Origin: a virus
Strand: one strand, 5' to 3'
Length of the DNA: 26,385 nt
IMG/VR virus record: IMGVR_UViG_3300010391_000037
Location: 1-26,385 of that record
Shown here: positions 941 to 21,959 of the stretch, in pieces
Numbering within the stretch: position 1 is the first letter of the stretch
Layout: every line of letters begins with the position of its first letter
Notes under the pieces: model-generated
Databases searched by the model: none
The model's input: only the letters and a program-made list of their open reading frames with translations
What the model was told of the DNA's origin: nothing
Translations under genes and position numbers: made by a program

Positions 941-992
941 CGTGCCCACGCCACGTGTCCCCGCCCCGTGGCGGGGACGTGGCGTGGGCGTG
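941..992. repeat. Nested pair of 20-bp palindromes with 4-bp direct repeats
   Basis: The outer palindrome is 945-953 plus 982-988 with a central CGTG, which reconstitutes CCCACGCCACGTGGCGTGGG. It is bounded by CGTG at 941-944 and 989-992. The inner palindrome at 958-977 (TCCCCGCCCCGTGGCGGGGA, 8-bp arms) is bounded by CGTG at 954-957 and 978-981. These are copies of the centre of the outer palindrome. Removing the inner copy plus one CGTG restores a perfect 20-bp outer palindrome. The whole folds as a long GC hairpin in the gap between two genes. It is not followed by a T-tract on the transcribed strand, so it is a poor intrinsic terminator. Confidence 0.85.
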
Positions 993-3628: not shown

Positions 3629-4069
3629 TTACAACTTGAAGATGCGATTTGCCCCGTTGTCCCAGGTCACAGTAATATCACCCCCATTGGCCGTGATGGG
3701 CAAGCCGGTGGCTGTATCTATGAGGGCCACCAGGGGCGAGAGGGCATCGCTGGTGAGCGCCCGGTAAATGAGGATGTACTCAAAAGTGCCTGCCCCTACC
3801 GCCACGAACGTAATGTCGGCAGCATCGCAAACACCAGCAGCCGGGTCAGCAGGTACAACGACCACGCCATCGCCGAAACCCGTAGCCCCGCCGGCGCCGC
3901 CCTTCCGTGCACTGGTAGGTACATCATCCAGGAAATCGTGCGCTGCCAAATCCGGCGTATAGGTAGCGCTATCAACCAGGAAAGCCCGGAAGGTGTTGCC
4001 TCCGTTCTTCCACTGCAAGTCGCCCCGCGCGAACAGGTTGCGGGCGTTGTCGTATAATGCGTTTGCCAT
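3629..4069 (-). CDS. Conserved phage virion protein of the tail-fibre cluster
   Basis: This 146-residue protein starts MANALYDNARNLFARGDLQWKN and contains FRAFLVDSATYTPDLAAHDFLDDV, then a glycine-rich GGAGGATGFGDG turn and a beta-rich end, TVTWDNGANRIFKL. The motif of a short helix, then a DLxW segment, then RAxLVDxAxYTxxxxxHxFLxD, is common to small phage proteins in tail modules. These are often predicted to be virion components, but none is clearly characterised. The start ATG 4069 has AAAGGA upstream and the next gene follows after 16 bases. Confidence 0.65.
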   Translation of the reverse strand: MANALYDNARNLFARGDLQWKNGGNTFRAFLVDSATYTPDLAAHDFLDDVPTSARKGGAGGATGFGDGVVVVPADPAAGVCDAADITFVAVGAGTFEYILIYRALTSDALSPLVALIDTATGLPITANGGDITVTWDNGANRIFKL

Positions 4070-4087: not shown

Positions 4088-4414
4088 TTACGTGCCCACG
4101 CCACGTGGCGTGGACGTGGTAGCCGGTGGCTGCGCGGCCCCGCCACCAGCCAGTAAGCGTTTGGCTTTCATTAGCCCGTTGACCTCGCCGCGTATGGCCT
4201 GCATCGCGTCCCGCGCCTCTTCCAGAAACTCGGTATACACCGTCACGTTGGCCTCTGCGGATTTCTGACTTTCCAACGCCTGTTGCAGGAGGCTATCTAT
4301 TATCTGCGTGGGGGTCATCGGCGCGGATGCGGTGGGTGGTTGTTCTGGTCTGGCGGATTGGGAGGGCAGATGTTCAGGCTCCGCCGGATCAGTCGGTTGG
4401 ATTGGTTTGGTCAT
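4088..4414 (-). CDS. Small proline-rich, coiled-coil protein
   Basis: This 108-residue protein has a proline-rich N-terminal third (PTDPAEPEHLPSQS and following). A central helical segment at about residues 34-88 (IIDSLLQQALESQKSAEANV, then EFLEEARDAMQAIRGEVNGL) is likely a coiled coil. The tail is Gly/Pro-rich. The final residues STPRGVGT are encoded by a 24-bp palindromic repeat insertion that keeps the frame and stop; without it the protein would end PPATT. ATG 4414 is chosen over GTG 4417 because GGAG lies 5 bases before the ATG but only 2 before the GTG. Function unknown; small coiled-coil proteins in this position may be chaperones or accessory fibre proteins. Confidence 0.6.
   Translation of the reverse strand: MTKPIQPTDPAEPEHLPSQSARPEQPPTASAPMTPTQIIDSLLQQALESQKSAEANVTVYTEFLEEARDAMQAIRGEVNGLMKAKRLLAGGGAAQPPATTSTPRGVGT
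4091..4118. repeat. 20-bp palindrome flanked by CGTG direct repeats
   Basis: The core is 4095-4114, CCCACGCCACGTGGCGTGGA, with a perfect 18-bp palindrome at 4096-4113. It is bounded by CGTG at 4091-4094 and 4115-4118. The 24-bp unit (core plus one CGTG) lies at the very 3' end of a coding sequence, just before its TAA. It contributes eight codons in frame. It shares its core with the copies at 941-992 and 21123-21150. Confidence 0.85.
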
Positions 4415-4448: not shown

Positions 4449-4751
4449 TCAAGGTGTCGGCGTGGGCGTCGGCGTCGCGTAACTGTTGGGGAACCCACAG
4501 TTGCCCCACTGCGTGTTAGACCACGAGCCGGTCAGATCAGGGCTGCGCTTGTCCGAGTAGCCCGCCGTGTTGCCGTAGTCGCGACTGTCCTGTTCCGCCC
4601 CGGCCGCGTTATAGAGTTTAACCGTGCGCGTGCCGCTTGCCGTCGTCAGCGGCAAGGCCGTATCCGCCCGGAAGTACGCGTGCGCGCCCGGATAGACCAC
4701 CGCCCCGTAGGGCAGCGTATAGGTGTAGTTGGTGGAGCCAACGATGCTCAC
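4449..4751 (-). CDS. C-terminal half of a split lamin-tail domain
   Basis: This 100-residue frame starts at GTG 4751, which overlaps the TGA of the upstream gene (GTGA). The sequence YTLPYGAVVYPGAHAYFRAD, then TRTVKLYNAAGAEQDSRDYG, is the second half of a lamin-tail-domain fold. The first half, LRLNEVDYDP to QCIELYW, is the end of the upstream ORF. Reading this frame back across the junction gives AAERDQYYIVSIVGS, a sensible continuation. The two ORFs were therefore probably one coding sequence now separated by a -1 frame change near 4760-4785. The protein ends abruptly in a short Thr-Pro tail (TPTPTPTP), as if a linker lost its next domain. Independent translation by reinitiation is also possible. 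Confidence 0.6.
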   Translation of the reverse strand: MSIVGSTNYTYTLPYGAVVYPGAHAYFRADTALPLTTASGTRTVKLYNAAGAEQDSRDYGNTAGYSDKRSPDLTGSWSNTQWGNCGFPNSYATPTPTPTP

Positions 4752-7630
4752 GATGTAATACTGGTCACGCTCTGCTGCGCGGCCCCGCCCCAGTACAGTT
4801 CAATGCACTGGTCGCCTAACGTGACCTCACCGTCACCGTCATTGTCTATCGTCGGGTCGTAGTCCACTTCGTTCAGTCTCAGCGAGGAGAAAGGCGTCGC
4901 GGTGGGCGTATAGGTCGGCGTAAGCGTGGCCGTCGGCGTGCGCGTAATGGTCGGCGTCGGCGTGGCCGTCGCGGGCGTAGCCGTCGCGGTGGGTGTAACC
5001 GTCGGCGTTACCGTATAGGTTGGCGCGTACAACCGCGCCTCGTCCGTCGTCTGCCGCGTCACCACGATGGCAGTCGCGGTAGGCGTCGGTGTGACCGTAG
5101 GGGTCGGCGTTGGGTTCGTCCAGGCCAGCGAAAGGGAAGGCGGACTGCCCCCCGCGTCATCCAGTACTTCCGGGTCACGCGTCGTTGTCCCGCCAGACGC
5201 CCAGTAAACAATGACCACGAAACTATTGTCCCAACTCACGCCCGCCGTATCCAGCACCTCATTAAGCACGGTAGCGAAATCCGGCGTGGTATAGGTATTG
5301 CCCGCCGTCCACGCGCTGGGCGTGTAGGAGGCGGTCGTGGATGTGCGGGTGCGCTGCGATGGCTTGTTGGTCGTGCAGTCAAAGGTCACGGTGGTCGCGG
5401 TGTTTTGGCCCGCAATGGCGTCAACCATCGCTACGCTGGCCGCCGTGTTTGCCTTAAAGTCAATGGTAGCCGATGACAACTTGGCGGTACTGTTGGGACG
5501 GCTCACGCTGGTAAAGCGGTAGCCCGCGTAATAGATCTCGGAGCCGGAATAACCGAACTTCGCTTCTACCGTGGAGCAGGTCGCCCCCACGTCATAGGCA
5601 TCATCCGCGTTCGCGGCGGGCGTGTAGATCGCCGCCGCGTAGGTGGCCGTCGGCGTGACGGTGGGCGTCGGCGTGTTGGTAGGAGTCGGCGTATTGGTGG
5701 AGTAGGTCGTCGCCGTTGGTGTCGGTTGGTACTGCACTACCAATTTGGGCCGCTTGGCCGTGTCCAGGTTGCCTTTGCTCGCGAAGGCCCAACTGTCCTG
5801 TACCGCGCTATCATTGAAAGCGATGCGCACGCCATAGACCGGCGTACCGGCCACCACCTTCTGCACAAAGTCCAGGACGTTGATCTGCTTGGTCGCCGCC
5901 GGGGTCGCGTTGATGGAAACCGTCGCGATGGGCGTGCCCACGTCCGTCGTCCCCTTCGCGCCCGCCGTCTCCCAGTTAACCCCGCTGGCATACTGGTTCC
6001 AGGTCGCCCCGGCCTCCGTCCAGTCCTTGAGTACCGTCTCGGCCTTGATATTCCCTGTGCCTGCCGAACTTCCCACCGAGACCAGGTACAAATCCAGCGT
6101 GGCCGCCGTGATGGTCGTGTTGGCGGGCAAGTCCAGGCCGCAGAAGTCCAGGAGCATCGGTTGGTAGGAATCCGTCGCGTTGCCGCCCATCGTCACATTG
6201 TAGTTGCCGCCGTAGTTGTTGGTCGGGTTGTATTGGCTGAGGTGGGTATCCTCCATGCAGGTGTAGAGATTCACACCATAGATGTAGGTGACTGTAAGGG
6301 AGGGAGGCGTATTGGTTGGCGTCGGCGTCAGGGTCGGCGTCGGCGTGGGCGTCGGTTCAACGCCCGTCGCCTGGTATGCCCAACGCACGTAATCGGCCCA
6401 CATATCCTGCGCCAGGGTCGCGTTCTGCCAGCCGACGTATAGGCGGTTGGGGCGCGTGGCCCCGTTCAGCGTGTCAATCCCGCTTTGCCACAAGACCTGC
6501 GTCCCGTTCACCTTGAGCAGGATGTAACCCGCCGTGTCGTGGTAATAGACCTCCCACTCCAGGTTATACCAGATTCCCCCGCTCAGGGCCGCCATGCCAC
6601 TGTCAAAGTACGTGGTCGTGTTGGCGTAGTTATAGACGCTCAGTTTGTTGTCGGTGCGCAAGGTCGCGTACTGATGGTGCGTACCGCTCACCGATAAGAT
6701 CGCAAAGGCGGCGCTTTGGTCTACCGTAGCCGAGTAGCGGAACCACATCTGCACCTTGTTATAGTCGTCGCCGGTCGCGATGCCCTTATAGACAAAGCAG
6801 GTATCGGCGTTACTGGACGTCTTATCGCTCTGGTAAGAACCCGTGCCCTCGTTCTTGTTCGTAGTATCCAGCACCACGTCGCAGTTCGCGGGATTGGAAG
6901 CCGTCTTTGCCGTCCAGTTGCCCGGCACCGCTGCGTCATTAGTCTCTGAAAAGCCCCAGGTAGCCGCCGTGGGTGTCGGCGTCTTGGTGGGCGTGTTTGT
7001 TGGCGTCGGCGTCGGCGTGGCATCCCAGGTCACGTCCAGGATAGCCGCCTGCGCCGGGTAGGTGTCATAGAACTTAGGATCGTACTGCGTAGCCCCGGAG
7101 ACGTAGGTGGCGACGAGGGCGATGGTATTTGTCCAGCCTCCCTGCCCTACCACCTCATCTATGATGCTCTGGATGTCCGGGCTGGTGTAGGTCGTACCTG
7201 CCGTGAAGCCGGTTAAGGCCCAGTCCACGTAGGCCGTCGTCTTGGTGCGGCCCGATGGTTTGGCCGCCGAGGAGCCGCAACCGAAGGCGGCGGGACTGGC
7301 CGTCAACTCACCGTAGATACGTATCGTAAGGGCTGCACTGTTGGTCGTGTTCGCCACCAGTTTCAGGTAAGCCGCGCTCGCGCCGCTTGACCCCGCCGGT
7401 CTGGAAACCGACGTCCACCGCCAGCCCGCCGTAAGGTCCTCGCCGGATAGGTTGCCCACCTTGCTACTGACCGTCGTGCAGTTTGTGGTACGGTCATAGG
7501 CGTCATCAGTGTAGGCAGAGACGGAATACGCGGCGGCCCACACTCTTACAGGACGGTTGTTTCCCATCTGAGCCAAAAAGGCCAGCAAGATGAGGGCTAT
7601 CAGGATGACAGCAAAGCGCTTGACTTTCAT
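4748..7630 (-). CDS. Exported multidomain glycan-binding-like protein with Thr-Pro linkers
   Basis: This is a 960-residue protein. The N-terminus is a signal peptide: MKVKR, hydrophobic FAVILIALILLAFLA, then a likely cleavage after VWA. Domains in order: a DAYD domain (about 35-202, two conserved Cys), a ConA-like sandwich (225-421, paired Cys), a DNRLRE/CBM96-like beta-sandwich (448-634), a second DAYD domain (668-838), and the first half of a lamin-tail domain (916-960). Thr-Pro linkers join them. The DNRLRE match includes VLKDWTEAGATWNQY and YGVRIAFND. Such modules are typical of extracellular Chloroflexota proteins. No catalytic domain was recognised. ATG 7630 has AGGTG 5 bases upstream and is preferred over GTG 7636. 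The protein may be an exported surface-acting product rather than a virion part. Confidence 0.7.
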   Translation of the reverse strand: MKVKRFAVILIALILLAFLAQMGNNRPVRVWAAAYSVSAYTDDAYDRTTNCTTVSSKVGNLSGEDLTAGWRWTSVSRPAGSSGASAAYLKLVANTTNSAALTIRIYGELTASPAAFGCGSSAAKPSGRTKTTAYVDWALTGFTAGTTYTSPDIQSIIDEVVGQGGWTNTIALVATYVSGATQYDPKFYDTYPAQAAILDVTWDATPTPTPTNTPTKTPTPTAATWGFSETNDAAVPGNWTAKTASNPANCDVVLDTTNKNEGTGSYQSDKTSSNADTCFVYKGIATGDDYNKVQMWFRYSATVDQSAAFAILSVSGTHHQYATLRTDNKLSVYNYANTTTYFDSGMAALSGGIWYNLEWEVYYHDTAGYILLKVNGTQVLWQSGIDTLNGATRPNRLYVGWQNATLAQDMWADYVRWAYQATGVEPTPTPTPTLTPTPTNTPPSLTVTYIYGVNLYTCMEDTHLSQYNPTNNYGGNYNVTMGGNATDSYQPMLLDFCGLDLPANTTITAATLDLYLVSVGSSAGTGNIKAETVLKDWTEAGATWNQYASGVNWETAGAKGTTDVGTPIATVSINATPAATKQINVLDFVQKVVAGTPVYGVRIAFNDSAVQDSWAFASKGNLDTAKRPKLVVQYQPTPTATTYSTNTPTPTNTPTPTVTPTATYAAAIYTPAANADDAYDVGATCSTVEAKFGYSGSEIYYAGYRFTSVSRPNSTAKLSSATIDFKANTAASVAMVDAIAGQNTATTVTFDCTTNKPSQRTRTSTTASYTPSAWTAGNTYTTPDFATVLNEVLDTAGVSWDNSFVVIVYWASGGTTTRDPEVLDDAGGSPPSLSLAWTNPTPTPTVTPTPTATAIVVTRQTTDEARLYAPTYTVTPTVTPTATATPATATPTPTITRTPTATLTPTYTPTATPFSSLRLNEVDYDPTIDNDGDGEVTLGDQCIELYWGGAAQQSVTSITS
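4892..5117 (-). repeat. Thr-Pro linker repeats (GC-rich hexamer tracts)
   Basis: Tracts of ACGCCG/ACGCCC-type hexamers on the coding strand encode TPTxTPT linkers. Further tracts in the same gene lie near 5637-5730, 6308-6357 and 6967-7022, with a terminal one at 4452-4480. They join folded domains and are likely sites of recombination or misassembly. Confidence 0.8.
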
Positions 7631-7638
7631 GTTCACAC

Positions 7639-10600
7639 CTAACGCATTGTGTAAATTACGAAGGGCTTAAAACTAGAATACCGCCCACCGATGCGTACCA
7701 TGTCCGCAGATGCGGGATTCTGCAACCGTAGCAGCAGCCCGTAGTTGGCTGTCTGCCATTGCAGGGCCAGCGGGGTAATGGTCATCTGGATAAAGGCTCC
7801 TGCATCGGACACCTGATAGGAGGCATAAGGGTCGGGGTCGGTGTCCAGGTCGCCGTACGCGCCCGCCGTCTGCCAGTAAGCCCATGCCTCCGGCGGTTCT
7901 GCGCTGTGATACCACGCCCACCAGGTCGTGTACGCGCTAATCCAATTGCGCCGCGTCAAATAGACTTCCAGCACGGGGTCGGTAAAGTTACTGGCCTGGA
8001 CCGCAAACCGCACCTGGTCAAACCAGTAGTCCGAGACGATACTGTTGCTGCTGATTTGGCCCATGCTCGTCTGTGTGCCGGGGGCCGCCGAGTTGAGGGT
8101 GTCTATACCGGTCTGATAGACGTCCTCTTGCCCATCTACCAGCAGGCGATACCAACCTCCAGAATTAGCATGGTAGGCCGTGACCGTCACTTTATACCAG
8201 GTAGCCGCCGCGAGAGCCTCTGCCCCCGCGTAGGCGGTGCTGTTGCCGTAGTTGTACAACTGCAACTTGCCGTCTGAGCGCAGATTCAGGTAGTAGTCGT
8301 TGGCTGCACCAGAGCCAACAACCAGGGCTATACCATTGGAGGCGTCCAGCACGTCGTAGCGGAACCAGAACTGCGCCCTGGTATAGACCCCGCCCGCCAT
8401 GCCCGACTTCGTGACGTAGCAGGTCGTCGTGTTGTCGCTGCCCTTGTCGGCCTTGTAACTGCCCGTGCCCTGGTTGAAGATGACCGTATCCAGCACGATA
8501 TCGCAGTCGGTTGGGTTGGAGGCTGTCTTAGATGGCCACGTACCCGGCACCGCCGCGTCGTTGTTCTCAGAGAACGCCCAGGTCGGTTTTCCTTCCCAGT
8601 CCGAGACGTAGAGGTTCAAGACCGCCGCGTCCATGACGCCCGCAGGCACATTGAACAACAGGATGGCTTCGTCACCGGCCTGGATGCGGTTCGTGCCCTT
8701 CTGCAAGATATACACCGTGTCGGTGGGCAGGGCCGTCGCTGCGGGCGTGGACGTGCCGGGATTCGTGGTCGGCGTCGGCGTGACCGTGGGCGTCGGCGTG
8801 CTGACGGTGTACCAGGTCACTTCCAGGATGGCCGCCAAGTTGGAGTTGGTCTCGTAGTTGTAGGGCACGCGCTGACCGTTGGCCGATACGCCCTTGACCA
8901 GCATCACCAGGCTCCCATCCCAGGAGCCGCCCGCGTAGTCCAGGGCCTCATTGAGCGCCGAGGCGAAGTCGGGCGCCCAGTGCTCGTTTCCCGCTACCCA
9001 CGGTTCCGGCTGCCAGGCAGTGTAGGCCGTCGTGGTGGGCCGCGCGGATGGCTTGCCCGTGCCGCAGTCAAAGAGGGTTGTGGTGGAGGCCTTCTGCGCG
9101 TAGATGTTCAGCGTGATACTGTCACCGAGGGTCTCCTGGGCCACAAAATGCAGGAACGCGGTCTGCACGCGCGAGTTGGCGTCTGGTTTCGTGATACCGG
9201 AATACCTGAAGCCGGTCGTGATGTCCTCGCCCGGCACGCCGCCTATCTTGGCTGAAAGCGTGGTGCACCAGGACGTGCGGTCGTAGACGTCCGCCGCCGC
9301 GTTTGCCAGGTAGTAGGACTGTACGCCCGCGCTACCCGTTGGCCTGGGCGTCGGCGTGGGCGTGTTGGTTGGTGTCGGCGTCGGCGTCGCGGTAGGGCCG
9401 CCCGGCGTCCAGGTGGGCGTGCGCGTCGGCGTGCGGGTCGGCGTGGCCGATGGCGTCGTGGTCGGCGGGGTCGGCGTGAAGGTCGCCAGAGGCGCGCCGC
9501 CCTTGTTCGCGATGACCATGTGGATGTACTCGCCGCCTTGCGTTCCGCTGGACAGGGCATTGATGCGCAGGTCAAAGAAGTATTCGCCCCCGCTCCCCGG
9601 CATCGTCTTGGAACCAAAAACGTACTCACCGCCTAACAGTGCAAACTCCGAGCGCTTCCAATCGCCGCTATTTGTTTTTGTTACAGTACCGAGCGTTGTA
9701 ACTCCTGCGCCCGTCCAATACTGCACCGAGAAAGTGTCTGTACCCTGGTCAAGGTAGATGACGCTGATGTACACGTCGTACCCGTTCCCGCCCGGCCACC
9801 AGCCCTCCAGCAACGGGTCAACCGTCAGGTAGGCGCAGTTCGGAACCTTGCGGCTGTACGCGCTGAATTTGTTGACCTTGCCCGCCGCGCTTAACAGGTT
9901 CCCATACTCCGGCGAGATAATGGTCTTGTTGGGATCATCCGCATTGACGATGTACCAGACCGGCGTCGTCAGGCCGTCGCACGCGTCTGCGCCCATACCG
10001 GAGGGGGTGGTCGTGTCAATCTGGTCAAGCCACTGGAATAAGTTCTGGGCGCGCGTCAAGACACTCCCTCCCCAGTAGTCTTGATGGAAGGCCGTCCACG
10101 CCTCCGTGCTGGTGTCCGCGCGCCGGTTCGCCATCGGCAGCGTCACGCCCGTGCCGCCCGTCCACCAGATGCGCAGCGCGTTGTACCAGGAGGCCATGAT
10201 GCCACTCTGGTAGGGTTGCTCTGTCCATTGGCGCAGCAACCCGCAGCCGTCTATGCGCTGCCAGGCGCAGGTCAGGAGCATCCAGTAAGAGAACCATTCC
10301 TGCTTATAAACCGCCTGGCTGATTCCGCTTACTGCCGCCTCAGAGTAGATGGGGTGGGAGCGGCCTAGACAGCGCAGAGCATCGGCTAATTCCCCGTATT
10401 GAACGTAAGTGCAATCCTTGCGTTCCGTGTCCGCGCCGTAGGAGTATATCTGGTTCCAGGTATGGTTGTACCGTATGTTGTTCACGAAATAGCCGGGGTT
10501 CACCGTCTCGGTATAAAAGCCCCATTCGCTGCCGTAGGGTTGGGTGAGGATGTAGGAGACGATCATGTGACGTTCAATCGGGTCGGTAAAGTGCGGCGAG

Positions 10601-11316
10601 ATGATGTACAGCCGCTCCTTTCCATGCCCGTAGGTATTCCAGGCGTTTATGACCGCCTTGCCGTAATTCACCCAGGCAGTCTGGGCCGCCGTCGTGCCGC
10701 CCCACGCCGTCTTGTAGGCGTCGCCCTCCACGCCATCATCCGGGAACGCCTCGGAGTCCGCACCCAGTGCCGCCATGAGGATAACGTTAGGATTGTTCTG
10801 GTAGTGCGCGGCCAATTGCTGGATGAGCCAGGCTATTTCCGTCTGCAACCCGGAATTGGCGTAGTTTATCATCTGGAGACTGGGGTCAAGGGCCGACGTG
10901 ACGGGGTTGTACTCCGGGGCCACTGCCCAGTCCGGTGAACCATCATTGCAGTTGGTGGACTTGCGCAAGCCACCCGCGCACGCGCCCTGCCAGTAGGTCT
11001 GCTTGAGCATGACGGCCAACAGCACCTTGTTACCCGACGCGGTAACCCGGTCTATCGTTGCATCAATTCCCGCCAGGCTAAGGCCGCGCTTGGTCGGCTC
11101 TATGTCTTTCCAGTAGGGCCGTAGGTGAATGAACTCTATATTGGAGCGGTAACTGGCACTCTGCGCGTTGTTATCCGCCGCCGACGCTGACGACGTACCC
11201 ATGCCCGCCTTATAGCCCGTCAAACCCGTTCCGCCCGGCACGACGGCCTTTGCGGGCGAAGCGTCACGCGAAAGGGCCAGGAATAGCAACGCCAAAAACA
11301 GCATTAGTTTTTTCAT
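7639..11316 (-). CDS. Exported TIM-barrel glycoside hydrolase-like protein with binding domains
   Basis: This 1225-residue protein begins with a signal peptide: MKKLMLFLALLFLALSRDAS, likely cleaved after AKA. Residues about 40-450 look like a (beta/alpha)8 glycosidase-like domain. Candidate acidic residues are Glu189 in ALGADSEAFP and Glu326 in PIYSEAAVSG, spaced as in clan GH-A enzymes. A beta-sandwich follows (about 500-605, GYDVYISVIYLDQGTD, EYIHMVIANKGG), then a Thr-Pro linker (612-661), a DAYD domain (666-835), a second linker, and a DNRLRE-like domain (866-1225) interrupted by a ConA-like domain at 911-1114. The likely role is cleavage or binding of host surface polysaccharide. ATG 11316 overlaps the upstream TGA and places the signal peptide first. 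The hydrolase assignment is inference from fold-level pattern. Confidence 0.65.
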   Translation of the reverse strand: MKKLMLFLALLFLALSRDASPAKAVVPGGTGLTGYKAGMGTSSASAADNNAQSASYRSNIEFIHLRPYWKDIEPTKRGLSLAGIDATIDRVTASGNKVLLAVMLKQTYWQGACAGGLRKSTNCNDGSPDWAVAPEYNPVTSALDPSLQMINYANSGLQTEIAWLIQQLAAHYQNNPNVILMAALGADSEAFPDDGVEGDAYKTAWGGTTAAQTAWVNYGKAVINAWNTYGHGKERLYIISPHFTDPIERHMIVSYILTQPYGSEWGFYTETVNPGYFVNNIRYNHTWNQIYSYGADTERKDCTYVQYGELADALRCLGRSHPIYSEAAVSGISQAVYKQEWFSYWMLLTCAWQRIDGCGLLRQWTEQPYQSGIMASWYNALRIWWTGGTGVTLPMANRRADTSTEAWTAFHQDYWGGSVLTRAQNLFQWLDQIDTTTPSGMGADACDGLTTPVWYIVNADDPNKTIISPEYGNLLSAAGKVNKFSAYSRKVPNCAYLTVDPLLEGWWPGGNGYDVYISVIYLDQGTDTFSVQYWTGAGVTTLGTVTKTNSGDWKRSEFALLGGEYVFGSKTMPGSGGEYFFDLRINALSSGTQGGEYIHMVIANKGGAPLATFTPTPPTTTPSATPTRTPTRTPTWTPGGPTATPTPTPTNTPTPTPRPTGSAGVQSYYLANAAADVYDRTSWCTTLSAKIGGVPGEDITTGFRYSGITKPDANSRVQTAFLHFVAQETLGDSITLNIYAQKASTTTLFDCGTGKPSARPTTTAYTAWQPEPWVAGNEHWAPDFASALNEALDYAGGSWDGSLVMLVKGVSANGQRVPYNYETNSNLAAILEVTWYTVSTPTPTVTPTPTTNPGTSTPAATALPTDTVYILQKGTNRIQAGDEAILLFNVPAGVMDAAVLNLYVSDWEGKPTWAFSENNDAAVPGTWPSKTASNPTDCDIVLDTVIFNQGTGSYKADKGSDNTTTCYVTKSGMAGGVYTRAQFWFRYDVLDASNGIALVVGSGAANDYYLNLRSDGKLQLYNYGNSTAYAGAEALAAATWYKVTVTAYHANSGGWYRLLVDGQEDVYQTGIDTLNSAAPGTQTSMGQISSNSIVSDYWFDQVRFAVQASNFTDPVLEVYLTRRNWISAYTTWWAWYHSAEPPEAWAYWQTAGAYGDLDTDPDPYASYQVSDAGAFIQMTITPLALQWQTANYGLLLRLQNPASADMVRIGGRYSSFKPFVIYTMR
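9340..9480 (-). repeat. Thr-Pro linker repeat in the glycosidase-like gene
   Basis: A low-complexity tract encodes about 47 residues of TPTP, TRTPTRTPTW and TPTNTPTPTP type between the catalytic-like part and the DAYD domain. A shorter tract lies near 8761-8810. The composition matches linkers of exported Chloroflexota proteins. Confidence 0.8.
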
Positions 11317-12326
11317 GGCATCGGCAACTCCGTCGTCAGGGCTGCGTAGTACCACGTCCCGCTCACCTTCACGGCCAGGCGTGGGTTGCCGGGGTCGGTC
11401 TGGTCATCCACGCCTATCTGATAAACCTTTGTCGTACCGGAGCGGTCAAGACCAATAGCCGCGGCAACGGCATAAGTAGTGTTAAGCCCCGCCCCAAACT
11501 GGCCCGCATCCAGGCCGTCCAGGGTCGCCGGTGGCTTAAACGCGCCCAGGCCCAAGTCCAAGCCGTAGTTGGTGTTCATCTGCCACCAACTGAGACCCTG
11601 TGCCTGCGTAAAGTAAAGGCCGGGCAGATAAACACCCTCAAACCCCGATGCGGTCAGGTTCACCCCGCCCGCATTTGACCTGGTGAGCAGGAGAAACATA
11701 TTGTGCTGGATGTAACCGCCCGCGATGCTGTGGAAGCCTAGCCCCACCTCCGCAAAGTCATTGAGGCCATCACCTATGTCTGCCGTCAGGTAGGAGGAGC
11801 GTGACCCACCCGCCGTTCCTCCCACTACGTTGTAAGTCACCTGGGACAGGATGGAGTCGTAGGTGGCCCTGTCTGCGTTATACCAAGTTACGCCCCGGCG
11901 CAGAGTGGCGGGGGATGGAATGGAAGCGATGTCATCTACTACGTTGGCAGCCATCGTCAGGCCGTCGGCGTTCATCCAGGCGTCGTTATTGGTTCCCCAC
12001 ACGAAACGCCCATTGGGATAATCCCAGTAGCCCTGACGGATCTCGCCGGTAGCGGCGGTATAACGCCAGAACTCAAAACCGCGCGTCACGCCGCTATGGT
12101 TGGGCGGCGCGTACGTGCTCCACCAGGGGGAAGCCGGTTGCAGGTTCCACGCGTAGAGGCCGCTCCGCTGCCCGGAATTGTATGCCTGGCCTGCCAGCCG
12201 CAAGGCGCCGCCCTGCATTTCCCCCATCTGAGCATTGATTTGCGCCCATTCCCCGCTCAAGGTCAGCCGGTTTACGTTCAGTTCGCCGATGATGACCTTC
12301 GCCGCGATGTCCAGGTAGTAGGCCAT
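11313..12326 (-). CDS. Tail fibre / receptor-binding-like protein, C-terminal part
   Basis: This 337-residue protein starts MAYYLDIAAKVIIGELNVNR. After a short helical N-terminus it is aromatic and glycine-rich beta sequence (GFEFWRYTAATGEIRQGYWD, YLPGLYFTQAQGLSWWQMN, ending VSGTWYYAALTTELPMP). The likely role is a distal fibre or receptor-binding domain. The ORF overlaps the upstream fibre gene by 49 bases. Reading its frame upstream of the ATG gives QGEAQGK, which fits as a continuation of the upstream protein better than that protein's own arginine-rich ending. The pair may therefore be one interrupted gene. ATG 12326 has AGGG 4 bases upstream, so separate initiation is also possible. The TGA overlaps the next start as ATGA. 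Confidence 0.65.
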   Translation of the reverse strand: MAYYLDIAAKVIIGELNVNRLTLSGEWAQINAQMGEMQGGALRLAGQAYNSGQRSGLYAWNLQPASPWWSTYAPPNHSGVTRGFEFWRYTAATGEIRQGYWDYPNGRFVWGTNNDAWMNADGLTMAANVVDDIASIPSPATLRRGVTWYNADRATYDSILSQVTYNVVGGTAGGSRSSYLTADIGDGLNDFAEVGLGFHSIAGGYIQHNMFLLLTRSNAGGVNLTASGFEGVYLPGLYFTQAQGLSWWQMNTNYGLDLGLGAFKPPATLDGLDAGQFGAGLNTTYAVAAAIGLDRSGTTKVYQIGVDDQTDPGNPRLAVKVSGTWYYAALTTELPMP

Positions 12327-21112: not shown

Positions 21113-21176
21113 TTAGGTACTCCGTATCCACGCCACGTGGCGTGGACGTAGTAGGTGTACTCACCCTGGTAGCAGC
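21113..21176 (-). repeat. Leader repeat copy 1, split by a palindrome
   Basis: On the coding strand this spans the end of the gp10-like gene, the stop TGA, TACACCTACTACG, the palindromic insertion, then GAGTACCT before the terminator start. Apart from the 24-bp insertion and a few substitutions it matches 21569-21605. It supplies the GGAG ribosome binding site of the next gene. Confidence 0.8.
21123..21150. repeat. 20-bp palindrome flanked by CGTA direct repeats
   Basis: The core at 21127-21146 is a perfect 20-bp palindrome, TCCACGCCACGTGGCGTGGA, bounded by CGTA at 21123-21126 and 21147-21150. The homologous leader at 21577-21580 has a single CGTA and no palindrome, so it represents an empty site. 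This locus gives the clearest evidence that the element was inserted with a 4-bp duplication. Confidence 0.9.
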
Positions 21177-21568
21177 CTTTCCATCGCGCTGATGAACGGT
21201 TGCCGCGCTTCCTCTGTGGCCGGCACGAACGCGGGCCGGGCCGCAACGTGCGCCCCGCCGAACTCCAACACCGGCGCGTACTCCTGGGGCGTGCTGATGA
21301 TCCCGGTCAGCCCATCATTCTCAAAGGTGGAGGCGACGCTATTGATTAAGGCTCCCATGTCCACCGCGGGCGCTTCACCGGGCGCGCTGGCAGTGTGGGA
21401 AACACTCTTGCGCACGTACGCCCGCCCATGCTTTGGCTCGGCCATTTTCGTCTTGATCCGGCCCTCAATCCAGAAAGTTGTGACTCCGACGATGCGCCGG
21501 GCGTTGCCGCGTGCTTCCTGCGACAGTTTCGGGAAGTCGTCAAAGATGATCTTGATCTCGTCTGTCAT
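21161..21568 (-). CDS. HK97 gp10-like head-tail/tail completion protein
   Basis: This 135-residue protein reads MTDEIKIIFDDFPKLSQEAR, then AEPKHGRAYVRKSVSHTASA, PGEAPAVDMGALINSVAST, and YAPVLEFGGAHVAARPAFVP. The motif order GRxYxR, SAPGEAPAxDxGxLxxS, YAxxLEFGxxxxxxRPAFxPA is characteristic of the HK97 gp10 family, which acts at the head-tail junction or in tail completion. Length fits the family. ATG 21568 has GGAG 5 bases upstream in the repeated leader, so it is preferred to upstream codons. It lies between the head-closure and terminator genes, as expected. Confidence 0.85.
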   Translation of the reverse strand: MTDEIKIIFDDFPKLSQEARGNARRIVGVTTFWIEGRIKTKMAEPKHGRAYVRKSVSHTASAPGEAPAVDMGALINSVASTFENDGLTGIISTPQEYAPVLEFGGAHVAARPAFVPATEEARQPFISAMERLLPG

Positions 21569-21605
21569 AGGTACTCCGTAGTAGGTGTATTCACCCTCGC
21601 AGCAA
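21569..21605 (-). repeat. Leader repeat copy 2, uninterrupted
   Basis: This leader holds the end of the head-closure gene, its TGA, and the run to GGAGTACCT directly before ATG 21568. It carries one CGTA where the sister leader at 21113-21176 carries CGTA, palindrome, CGTA. About 28 bases around the junction are shared, with one mismatch. Confidence 0.8.
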
Positions 21606-21959
21606 CACCACCGCGACCCGCGTCGCCGTCGCCCAGGCCCCGCCGGACATAGGGCCGATGACAGAGTAAACCACACTAGCGATCTCTATCTCGTCATCGT
21701 CCTGCACGTCCTGGCCGTGAGCGAACTTGATGACCCAGGCTGTGCGGCCCATCAGCCGTTCGGCCACCGGCGATTTCGTGGGGTTGCCCAGGAGCGAGCG
21801 GTTACAGGCCACGTTCTCGGCCACGAGCACCGGCGCGGTAGACTCGTTCTCCTGCCCCGCGCCCACCTGCACGGGCCGCCGGATGGTGGCCGTTTCGTTC
21901 AGGGTGCGATCCTGGGCCGCGCGCATGTTTGCCAGGCCGATGGCAGAGAGCATGGTCAT
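21591..21959 (-). CDS. Head closure-like protein
   Basis: This 122-residue beta-rich protein reads MTMLSAIGLANMRAAQDRTL, NETATIRRPVQVGAGQENES, VAERLMGRTAWVIKFAHGQD, VQDDDEIEIASVVYSVIGPM. An N-terminal helix, then TATIxRP, then a barrel with GQDVxxxDEIEI, matches the head-closure or stopper class that seals the connector. Position after the adaptor supports this. ATG 21959 overlaps the adaptor stop as ATGA, with AAAGG 8 bases upstream. An ATG two codons later is a minor alternative. The exact family name is uncertain. Confidence 0.7.
   Translation of the reverse strand: MTMLSAIGLANMRAAQDRTLNETATIRRPVQVGAGQENESTAPVLVAENVACNRSLLGNPTKSPVAERLMGRTAWVIKFAHGQDVQDDDEIEIASVVYSVIGPMSGGAWATATRVAVVLLRG

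Follow-up and report, generated by a model that had tools for sequence, protein, structure and literature searches.

Can a palindrome of only 20 bp move as a mobile element? The question is raised by two adjacent phage genes whose leaders are near copies of each other, one carrying a 20-bp palindrome and an additional CGTA. The window analyzed here is the whole 26,385-base IMG/VR virus record IMGVR_UViG_3300010391_000037, a fragment carrying structural genes; scans of the window ORFs with PHROGs and Pfam identified head, neck, and tail genes in a block on the minus strand. Relatives of the capsid protein are found in Chloroflexota genomes (Ardenticatenaceae, other Anaerolineae, and Thermosporothrix) and in a few others, and the phage host is likely a member of Chloroflexota because the relatives of the major capsid protein reside in these genomes. 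Phage relatives identified via gene 3629-4069 share at most 52% identity, one short piece excepted, and no closer phage relatives were found via the tail-completion gene.

Filled and Empty Leaders

The two leaders are located 0.45 kb apart, with the following features:

21161, minus strand: stop codon of the neck gene, upstream of site 3
21123-21150, minus strand: site 3 (filled), comprising CGTA (21123-21126), the perfect palindrome TCCACGCCACGTGGCGTGGA (21127-21146), and CGTA (21147-21150), between the neck gene stop and the tail-completion gp17-like gene start
about 21112, minus strand: TTG start of the tail-completion gp17-like gene, downstream of site 3
21561-21597, minus strand: empty leader TGAATACACCTACTACGGAGTACCTATG, before the neck/tail-completion gene
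about 21568, minus strand: ATG start of the neck/tail-completion gene, preceded by the empty leader

On the minus strand, the filled leader reads TGAGTACACCTACTACG-TCCACGCCACGTGGCGTGGA-TACGGAGTACCTAAGTTG. Removal of 24 bp yields TACACCTACTACGGAGTACCTA (minus strand), which is identical at 21569-21589, and the two leaders differ by these 24 bp (palindrome plus CGTA) and one G/A difference. The matched leader begins at the stop codon upstream and ends immediately short of the start codon, with approximately 25 nt identical apart from that G/A position, and it occurs nowhere else in the window at ≤3 mismatches (0 expected). An earlier note on this DNA had described near-copy leaders of adjacent genes, one filled and one empty, and had counted a perfect 20-bp palindrome plus a duplicated CGTA as 24 bp; both descriptions are borne out, the former by the 24-bp removal and the latter at 21123-21150. 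Its reading of the pair as insertion with target duplication is supported by the four insertions, the nested copy, and the GH38 insertion described below, although the leader pair alone is inconclusive because a precise deletion between the CGTA repeats gives the same end states. Apart from the palindrome, a leader of about 25-35 bp, from a gene end to the next start, is duplicated before two adjacent genes (21113-21177 and 21561-21610).

The Palindrome Family in the Window

The palindrome belongs to a 20-bp family, YCCMCGCC-NCGT-GGCGKGGR, represented in the window by three sites and four insertions. The motif is located at 958-977, 4095-4114, and 21127-21146 (≤3 mismatches; 0.37 matches expected), and the first two sites have the following features:

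about 904, minus strand: ATG start of the Gp77-like adaptor gene, after site 1
941-992, minus strand: site 1, outer element, comprising CGTG (941-944), CCCACGCCACGTGGCGTGGG (945-957 plus 982-988), and CGTG (989-992), lying after the stop of ORF 1001-2623 and before the ATG of the Gp77-like adaptor gene
954-981, minus strand: site 1, inner element, comprising CGTG, TCCCCGCCCCGTGGCGGGGA (958-977), and CGTG, in the center of the outer element
4091-4118, minus strand: site 2, comprising CGTG, CCCACGCCACGTGGCGTGGA, and CGTG, in ORF 4088-4414

All four insertions sit between direct repeats of CGTR (YACG on the other strand), i.e., CGTG at 958-977 and 4095-4114 and CGTA at 21127-21146, and the left and right R agree in each window copy, including the CGTA copy. 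Identical 4-bp flanks surround 1.05% of random 20-mers of the window. Among its 16 near-palindromic 20-mers (≥7/8 arm pairs), three have identical 4-bp flanks and are exactly the family members, and the other 13 all lack them. A 5-bp repeat was also weighed, as the base preceding CGTR matches in some copies; the filled and empty leaders fix the length at 4 bp. The orientation of all CGTR repeats on the plus strand was discarded as evidence, this strand having 337 CGTR vs. 194 YACG.

All window copies are in or at gene junctions with the same coding strand: two sites separate a stop codon from the next start codon, and one falls within the last codons before a stop. At this last one, site 2, the 24 inserted bp add STPRGVGT in frame, immediately ahead of the TAA of ORF 4088-4414. 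These positions fit insertion followed by selection against damage.

Site 1 is an element inside an element. The plus strand at 941-992 reads CGTG-CCCACGCCACGTG-TCCCCGCCCCGTGGCGGGGA-CGTG-GCGTGGG-CGTG, in which TCCCCGCCCCGTGGCGGGGA-CGTG constitutes the inner 24 bp, inserted at the CGTG of the outer center. Deletion of the inner palindrome and one CGTG (24 bp) yields CCCACGCCACGTGGCGTGGG, which is again a perfect palindrome of this family and has CGTG on either side. This nested copy is the strongest evidence for insertion in the window, and it is the nested copy, together with the GH38 homologues without the insert, that gives the change its direction as an insertion.

Hairpin Structure

The palindrome can fold into an 8-bp stem with a 4-nt loop. 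On the coding strand, 40 of 40 stem cells pair (one as U-G), and two pairs are changed on both sides among the five distinct sequences, a small sample, whereas in slid controls, with the partner moved by 1-3 columns, 46-60% are paired and no double changes occur. The predicted folding energy is -14.5 kcal/mol for the isolated hairpin and -49.1 kcal/mol for the nested region. Neither an Rfam match for the element nor a terminator-like T run after the palindrome was found.

Copies in an Anaerolineae Genome

Among a sample of 396 genomes of its class, one Anaerolineae genome (G070) was the sole motif match. It carries two exact copies of CCCTCGCCACGTGGCGAGGG, which differs from the phage motif at the two sides of one stem pair, i.e., by a compensatory change. 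The flanks are CGTG/CGTG in one copy and CGTG/CGCG in the other. Both copies lie in frame inside genes and add PSPRGEGT (8 codons): copy one in the GH38N region of a GH38 alpha-mannosidase gene, and copy two in a gene whose protein matches beta-propellers of the PQQ and FG-GAP-like types, in which the insert was compared solely with the protein's own next FG-GAP-like repeat. The comparison of each locus with homologues lacking the palindrome, suggested in the earlier note, favors insertion in the GH38 gene: nearly all of 29 same-class homologues have an 8-residue gap exactly at PSPRGEGT; in the nearest (55% identity), RGED occupies four positions of the gap, and in one other two positions are occupied.

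Rarity of the Element

The element is very rare in the collections scanned. A motif scan of IMG/VR returned eight stretches, none with CGTR flanks and some being extended, terminator-like palindromes, and a whole-element scan of genome contigs, with a pattern that excluded the arm in G070, returned none. Looser free-arm scans returned 4, 2, and 103 stretches, which are chance matches, none of those read having 7/8 arm pairs. Outside the window, the leader pattern with a variable gap matched only four phage contigs, with a gap of 5 nt; the two that were read are near copies of each other and lack such a leader. No element was present in 39 whole phage records encoding capsid relatives, and G070 alone was convincing among the overlapping Chloroflexota samples at class (396 genomes) and phylum (400 genomes) level. 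The motif and element scans fix at least the central bases and apply to families with this core; one with another core would be missed, and records very close to the window may lie outside their coverage. A generic scan for palindromes with 4-bp repeats gave 15 vs. 11 in shuffles for 1.37 Mb of fetched DNA and 8 vs. 8 for 0.79 Mb; the palindrome density of the window is exceptional because fetched DNA gives this chance level. The motif search in phage and host contigs proposed in the earlier note thus led to the two copies in G070 but to no second phage with the element, and a related phage with an empty site at the orthologous position is therefore not available.

Origin of the Palindromes

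Insertion is well supported. With the insertion, its 4-bp direct repeat, the nesting, the compensatory stem changes, and the related pair in a Chloroflexota chromosome all directly seen, we consider the family very probably to be a non-autonomous mobile element of very small size, in which a 20-bp palindrome inserts beside CGTR with a net gain of 24 bp; this confidence attaches to mobile insertion and not to the class of enzyme. Counting against it, besides the failure to detect a mobilizing gene in the window or a second phage with the element, are the CGTG/CGCG flanks of one G070 copy and the RGED in the nearest GH38 homologue.

The same arrangement could arise with no dedicated enzyme, by template switching at replication between CGTG microhomologies flanking the palindrome or by precise slippage deletion between the CGTR repeats. 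Hairpins promote slippage, the flanking repeat is short and equal to sequence inside the palindrome, and the empty leader could be a deletion product, only end states being seen. This origin is nevertheless improbable, given that the boundaries are exactly 24 bp in every copy and that the left and right target base R agree throughout the window copies, the CGTA one among them; moreover, 4 bp is very little homology for long-range jumps to recur with the same boundaries each time. Two further observations point to insertion: a perfect element reappears once the nested copy is removed, and the insert is absent from nearly all GH38 homologues.

Alternatively, selection may keep the palindromes in junctions as functional sites, either operators (of which mycobacteriophage stoperators are an example) or RNA hairpins that control expression. 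A ribosome-binding site directly follows the hairpin at 21127, a position from which a role in expression is possible; moreover, all window copies are in or at junctions on one coding strand, and the stem is kept via compensatory changes. Yet neither an operator nor a hairpin needs an asymmetric direct repeat outside it, an operator would be destroyed by nesting, the G070 copies are inside coding sequence, and the T run and Rfam match are lacking, which leaves this explanation quite improbable. Coincidence or an assembly artifact is the least probable of all: palindromic DNA can cause sequencing and assembly errors, and the window is one assembly, but four insertions in different contexts and with different arm sequences have consistent flanks, each matching by chance in only about 1% of cases, and the family recurs in G070, an independent Chloroflexota genome.

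Proposed Mechanism of Mobilization

As a mobile element, the palindrome would insert next to CGTR, each copy ending between two CGTR repeats. The CGTG in its own center would be a target for further copies, which would explain the nested pair. Phage copies would survive where a gain of 24 bp, or eight codons, is tolerated, namely in gene junctions and at the very 3′ end of a reading frame. Mobilization would presumably occur in trans, by an enzyme encoded outside the window: PHROGs and Pfam revealed no mobilizing gene in this fragmentary record, with not every ORF scanned by both, and there was no Y1 match among the window ORFs scanned. The only Y1_Tnp gene of G070 is flanked by unrelated hairpins of the form AAGCCCGC..GCGGGCTT, with no family core in its locus. 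To our knowledge, no transposase moves a 20-bp element.

The most likely enzyme, named tentatively and at somewhat less than even confidence, is an HUH/Y1-type nuclease recognizing the hairpin as single-stranded DNA. With CGTR as the cleavage tag, and provided that this tag was the same at left and right, such a nuclease would leave precisely this product, on the model of REP elements (PMC3733652, PMC3116915). Otherwise, and held with slightly less confidence still, a staggered 4-nt cut with repair, including RNA- or cDNA-mediated insertion, may be responsible; this would be a simpler account of the duplication, although it comes without a candidate enzyme. Repair involving an RNA or cDNA hairpin has been discussed for mitochondrial GC clusters (PMC4478555). 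Against the nuclease stand the unrelated hairpins at the only Y1 gene of G070 and the CGTA copy: having CGTA on both sides, this copy is better explained by true target duplication than by a carried tag of the IS200/IS605 kind, as a carried CGTG would need a CGTA donor.

Relation to Known Systems and Significance

The element resembles cyanobacterial small dispersed repeats (SDRs), REP/RAYT elements, and mitochondrial GC clusters, and its features are compared here with those of each. SDRs of Nostoc and relatives, reportedly described by Elhai and colleagues in 2008, are said to be 21-27 nt in length, to show nested insertions and compensatory changes in their hairpins, and to have been proposed as recently mobile; we know of no enzyme for them. 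The 24-bp unit falls within this range, forms a hairpin with two stem pairs changed on both sides (n = 5), and is inserted in its own copy at 941-992. However, SDRs reside in cyanobacterial chromosomes, whereas the present family occurs in a phage and one Chloroflexota genome in few copies, with a fixed 4-bp CGTR repeat on both sides.

REP elements are 20-40 bp palindromes with a GTAG or CGTC tetranucleotide tag, intergenic and sometimes intragenic, associated with RAYT (Y1) transposases (PMC3733652, PMC3116915); CGTC-class REPs also occur without a known dedicated transposase (PMC3733652). The present element is likewise a short palindrome beside a tetranucleotide, intergenic and sometimes intragenic, but in place of a GTAG/CGTC tag at one end it is bounded by a direct repeat of CGTG or CGTA, with no dimers, very few copies, and no association with a Y1 (RAYT) gene among the scanned window ORFs or in G070. 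Yeast mitochondrial GC clusters are GC-rich palindromes with short direct repeats resembling target-site duplications and a hairpin under constraint; the best-studied is about 42 nt, and they have AG or ACT repeats, many copies, and an unknown mechanism (PMC4478555). A GC-rich palindrome between short direct repeats is shared, while the present family resides in phage and bacterial DNA, not in mitochondria, and has CGTR instead of AG or ACT repeats. The earlier note had named small dispersed repeats in cyanobacteria and GC clusters in fungal mitochondria as the nearest analogues.

Mobile regulatory cassettes of T4-type phages (promoter early stem-loops) are also small stem-loop units scattered between phage genes, although they are larger and carry an early promoter, and we know of no 4-bp target duplication or nesting in them. 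MITEs of DNA transposons are recognized by a target-site duplication and by terminal inverted repeats in common with an autonomous transposon; the present family has 4-bp direct repeats, and no autonomous partner was detected in the window, to which its search was confined.

Very small mobile palindromes are a known kind; what sets this family apart is its exact duplication of the 4-bp CGTR, its occurrence in a phage, and the combination of nested, filled, and empty states. As a candidate mobile DNA element it ranks with the smallest on record, and the movement of elements of 20-40 bp has yet to be explained for SDRs, REPs, and mitochondrial GC clusters alike. The exact target duplication, empty site, nested copy, and in-frame insertions pin down the product of transposition with single-base precision, which makes candidate enzymes directly testable. 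The phage copy suggests a route of spread; the family may conceivably, although with less than even confidence, represent minimal mobile DNA of a new class, with a 20-bp palindrome, a CGTR target, and a 4-bp duplication, that moves in trans in Chloroflexota and their phages and is possibly carried by phages between hosts.

Additional Repeats

Other repeats were observed in the DNA examined. Degenerate 12-bp repeats (GTCGGCGTGGGC-like) occur at 4450-9480 of the window, in the long reading frames 4748-7636 and 7639-11355. A related phage (L018:12260-12288) carries a 28-bp perfect palindrome, CATGAGCACCGCCGCGGCGGTGCTCATG, whose CATG flanks were considered as a target duplication and rejected, CATG belonging to the palindrome itself. 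In G070 (L175:1220-1438), three identical hairpins, AAGCCCGCAGAGCGGGCTT, are located at 100-bp spacing just upstream of its only Y1 transposase gene and look like a REP/RAYT-type array.
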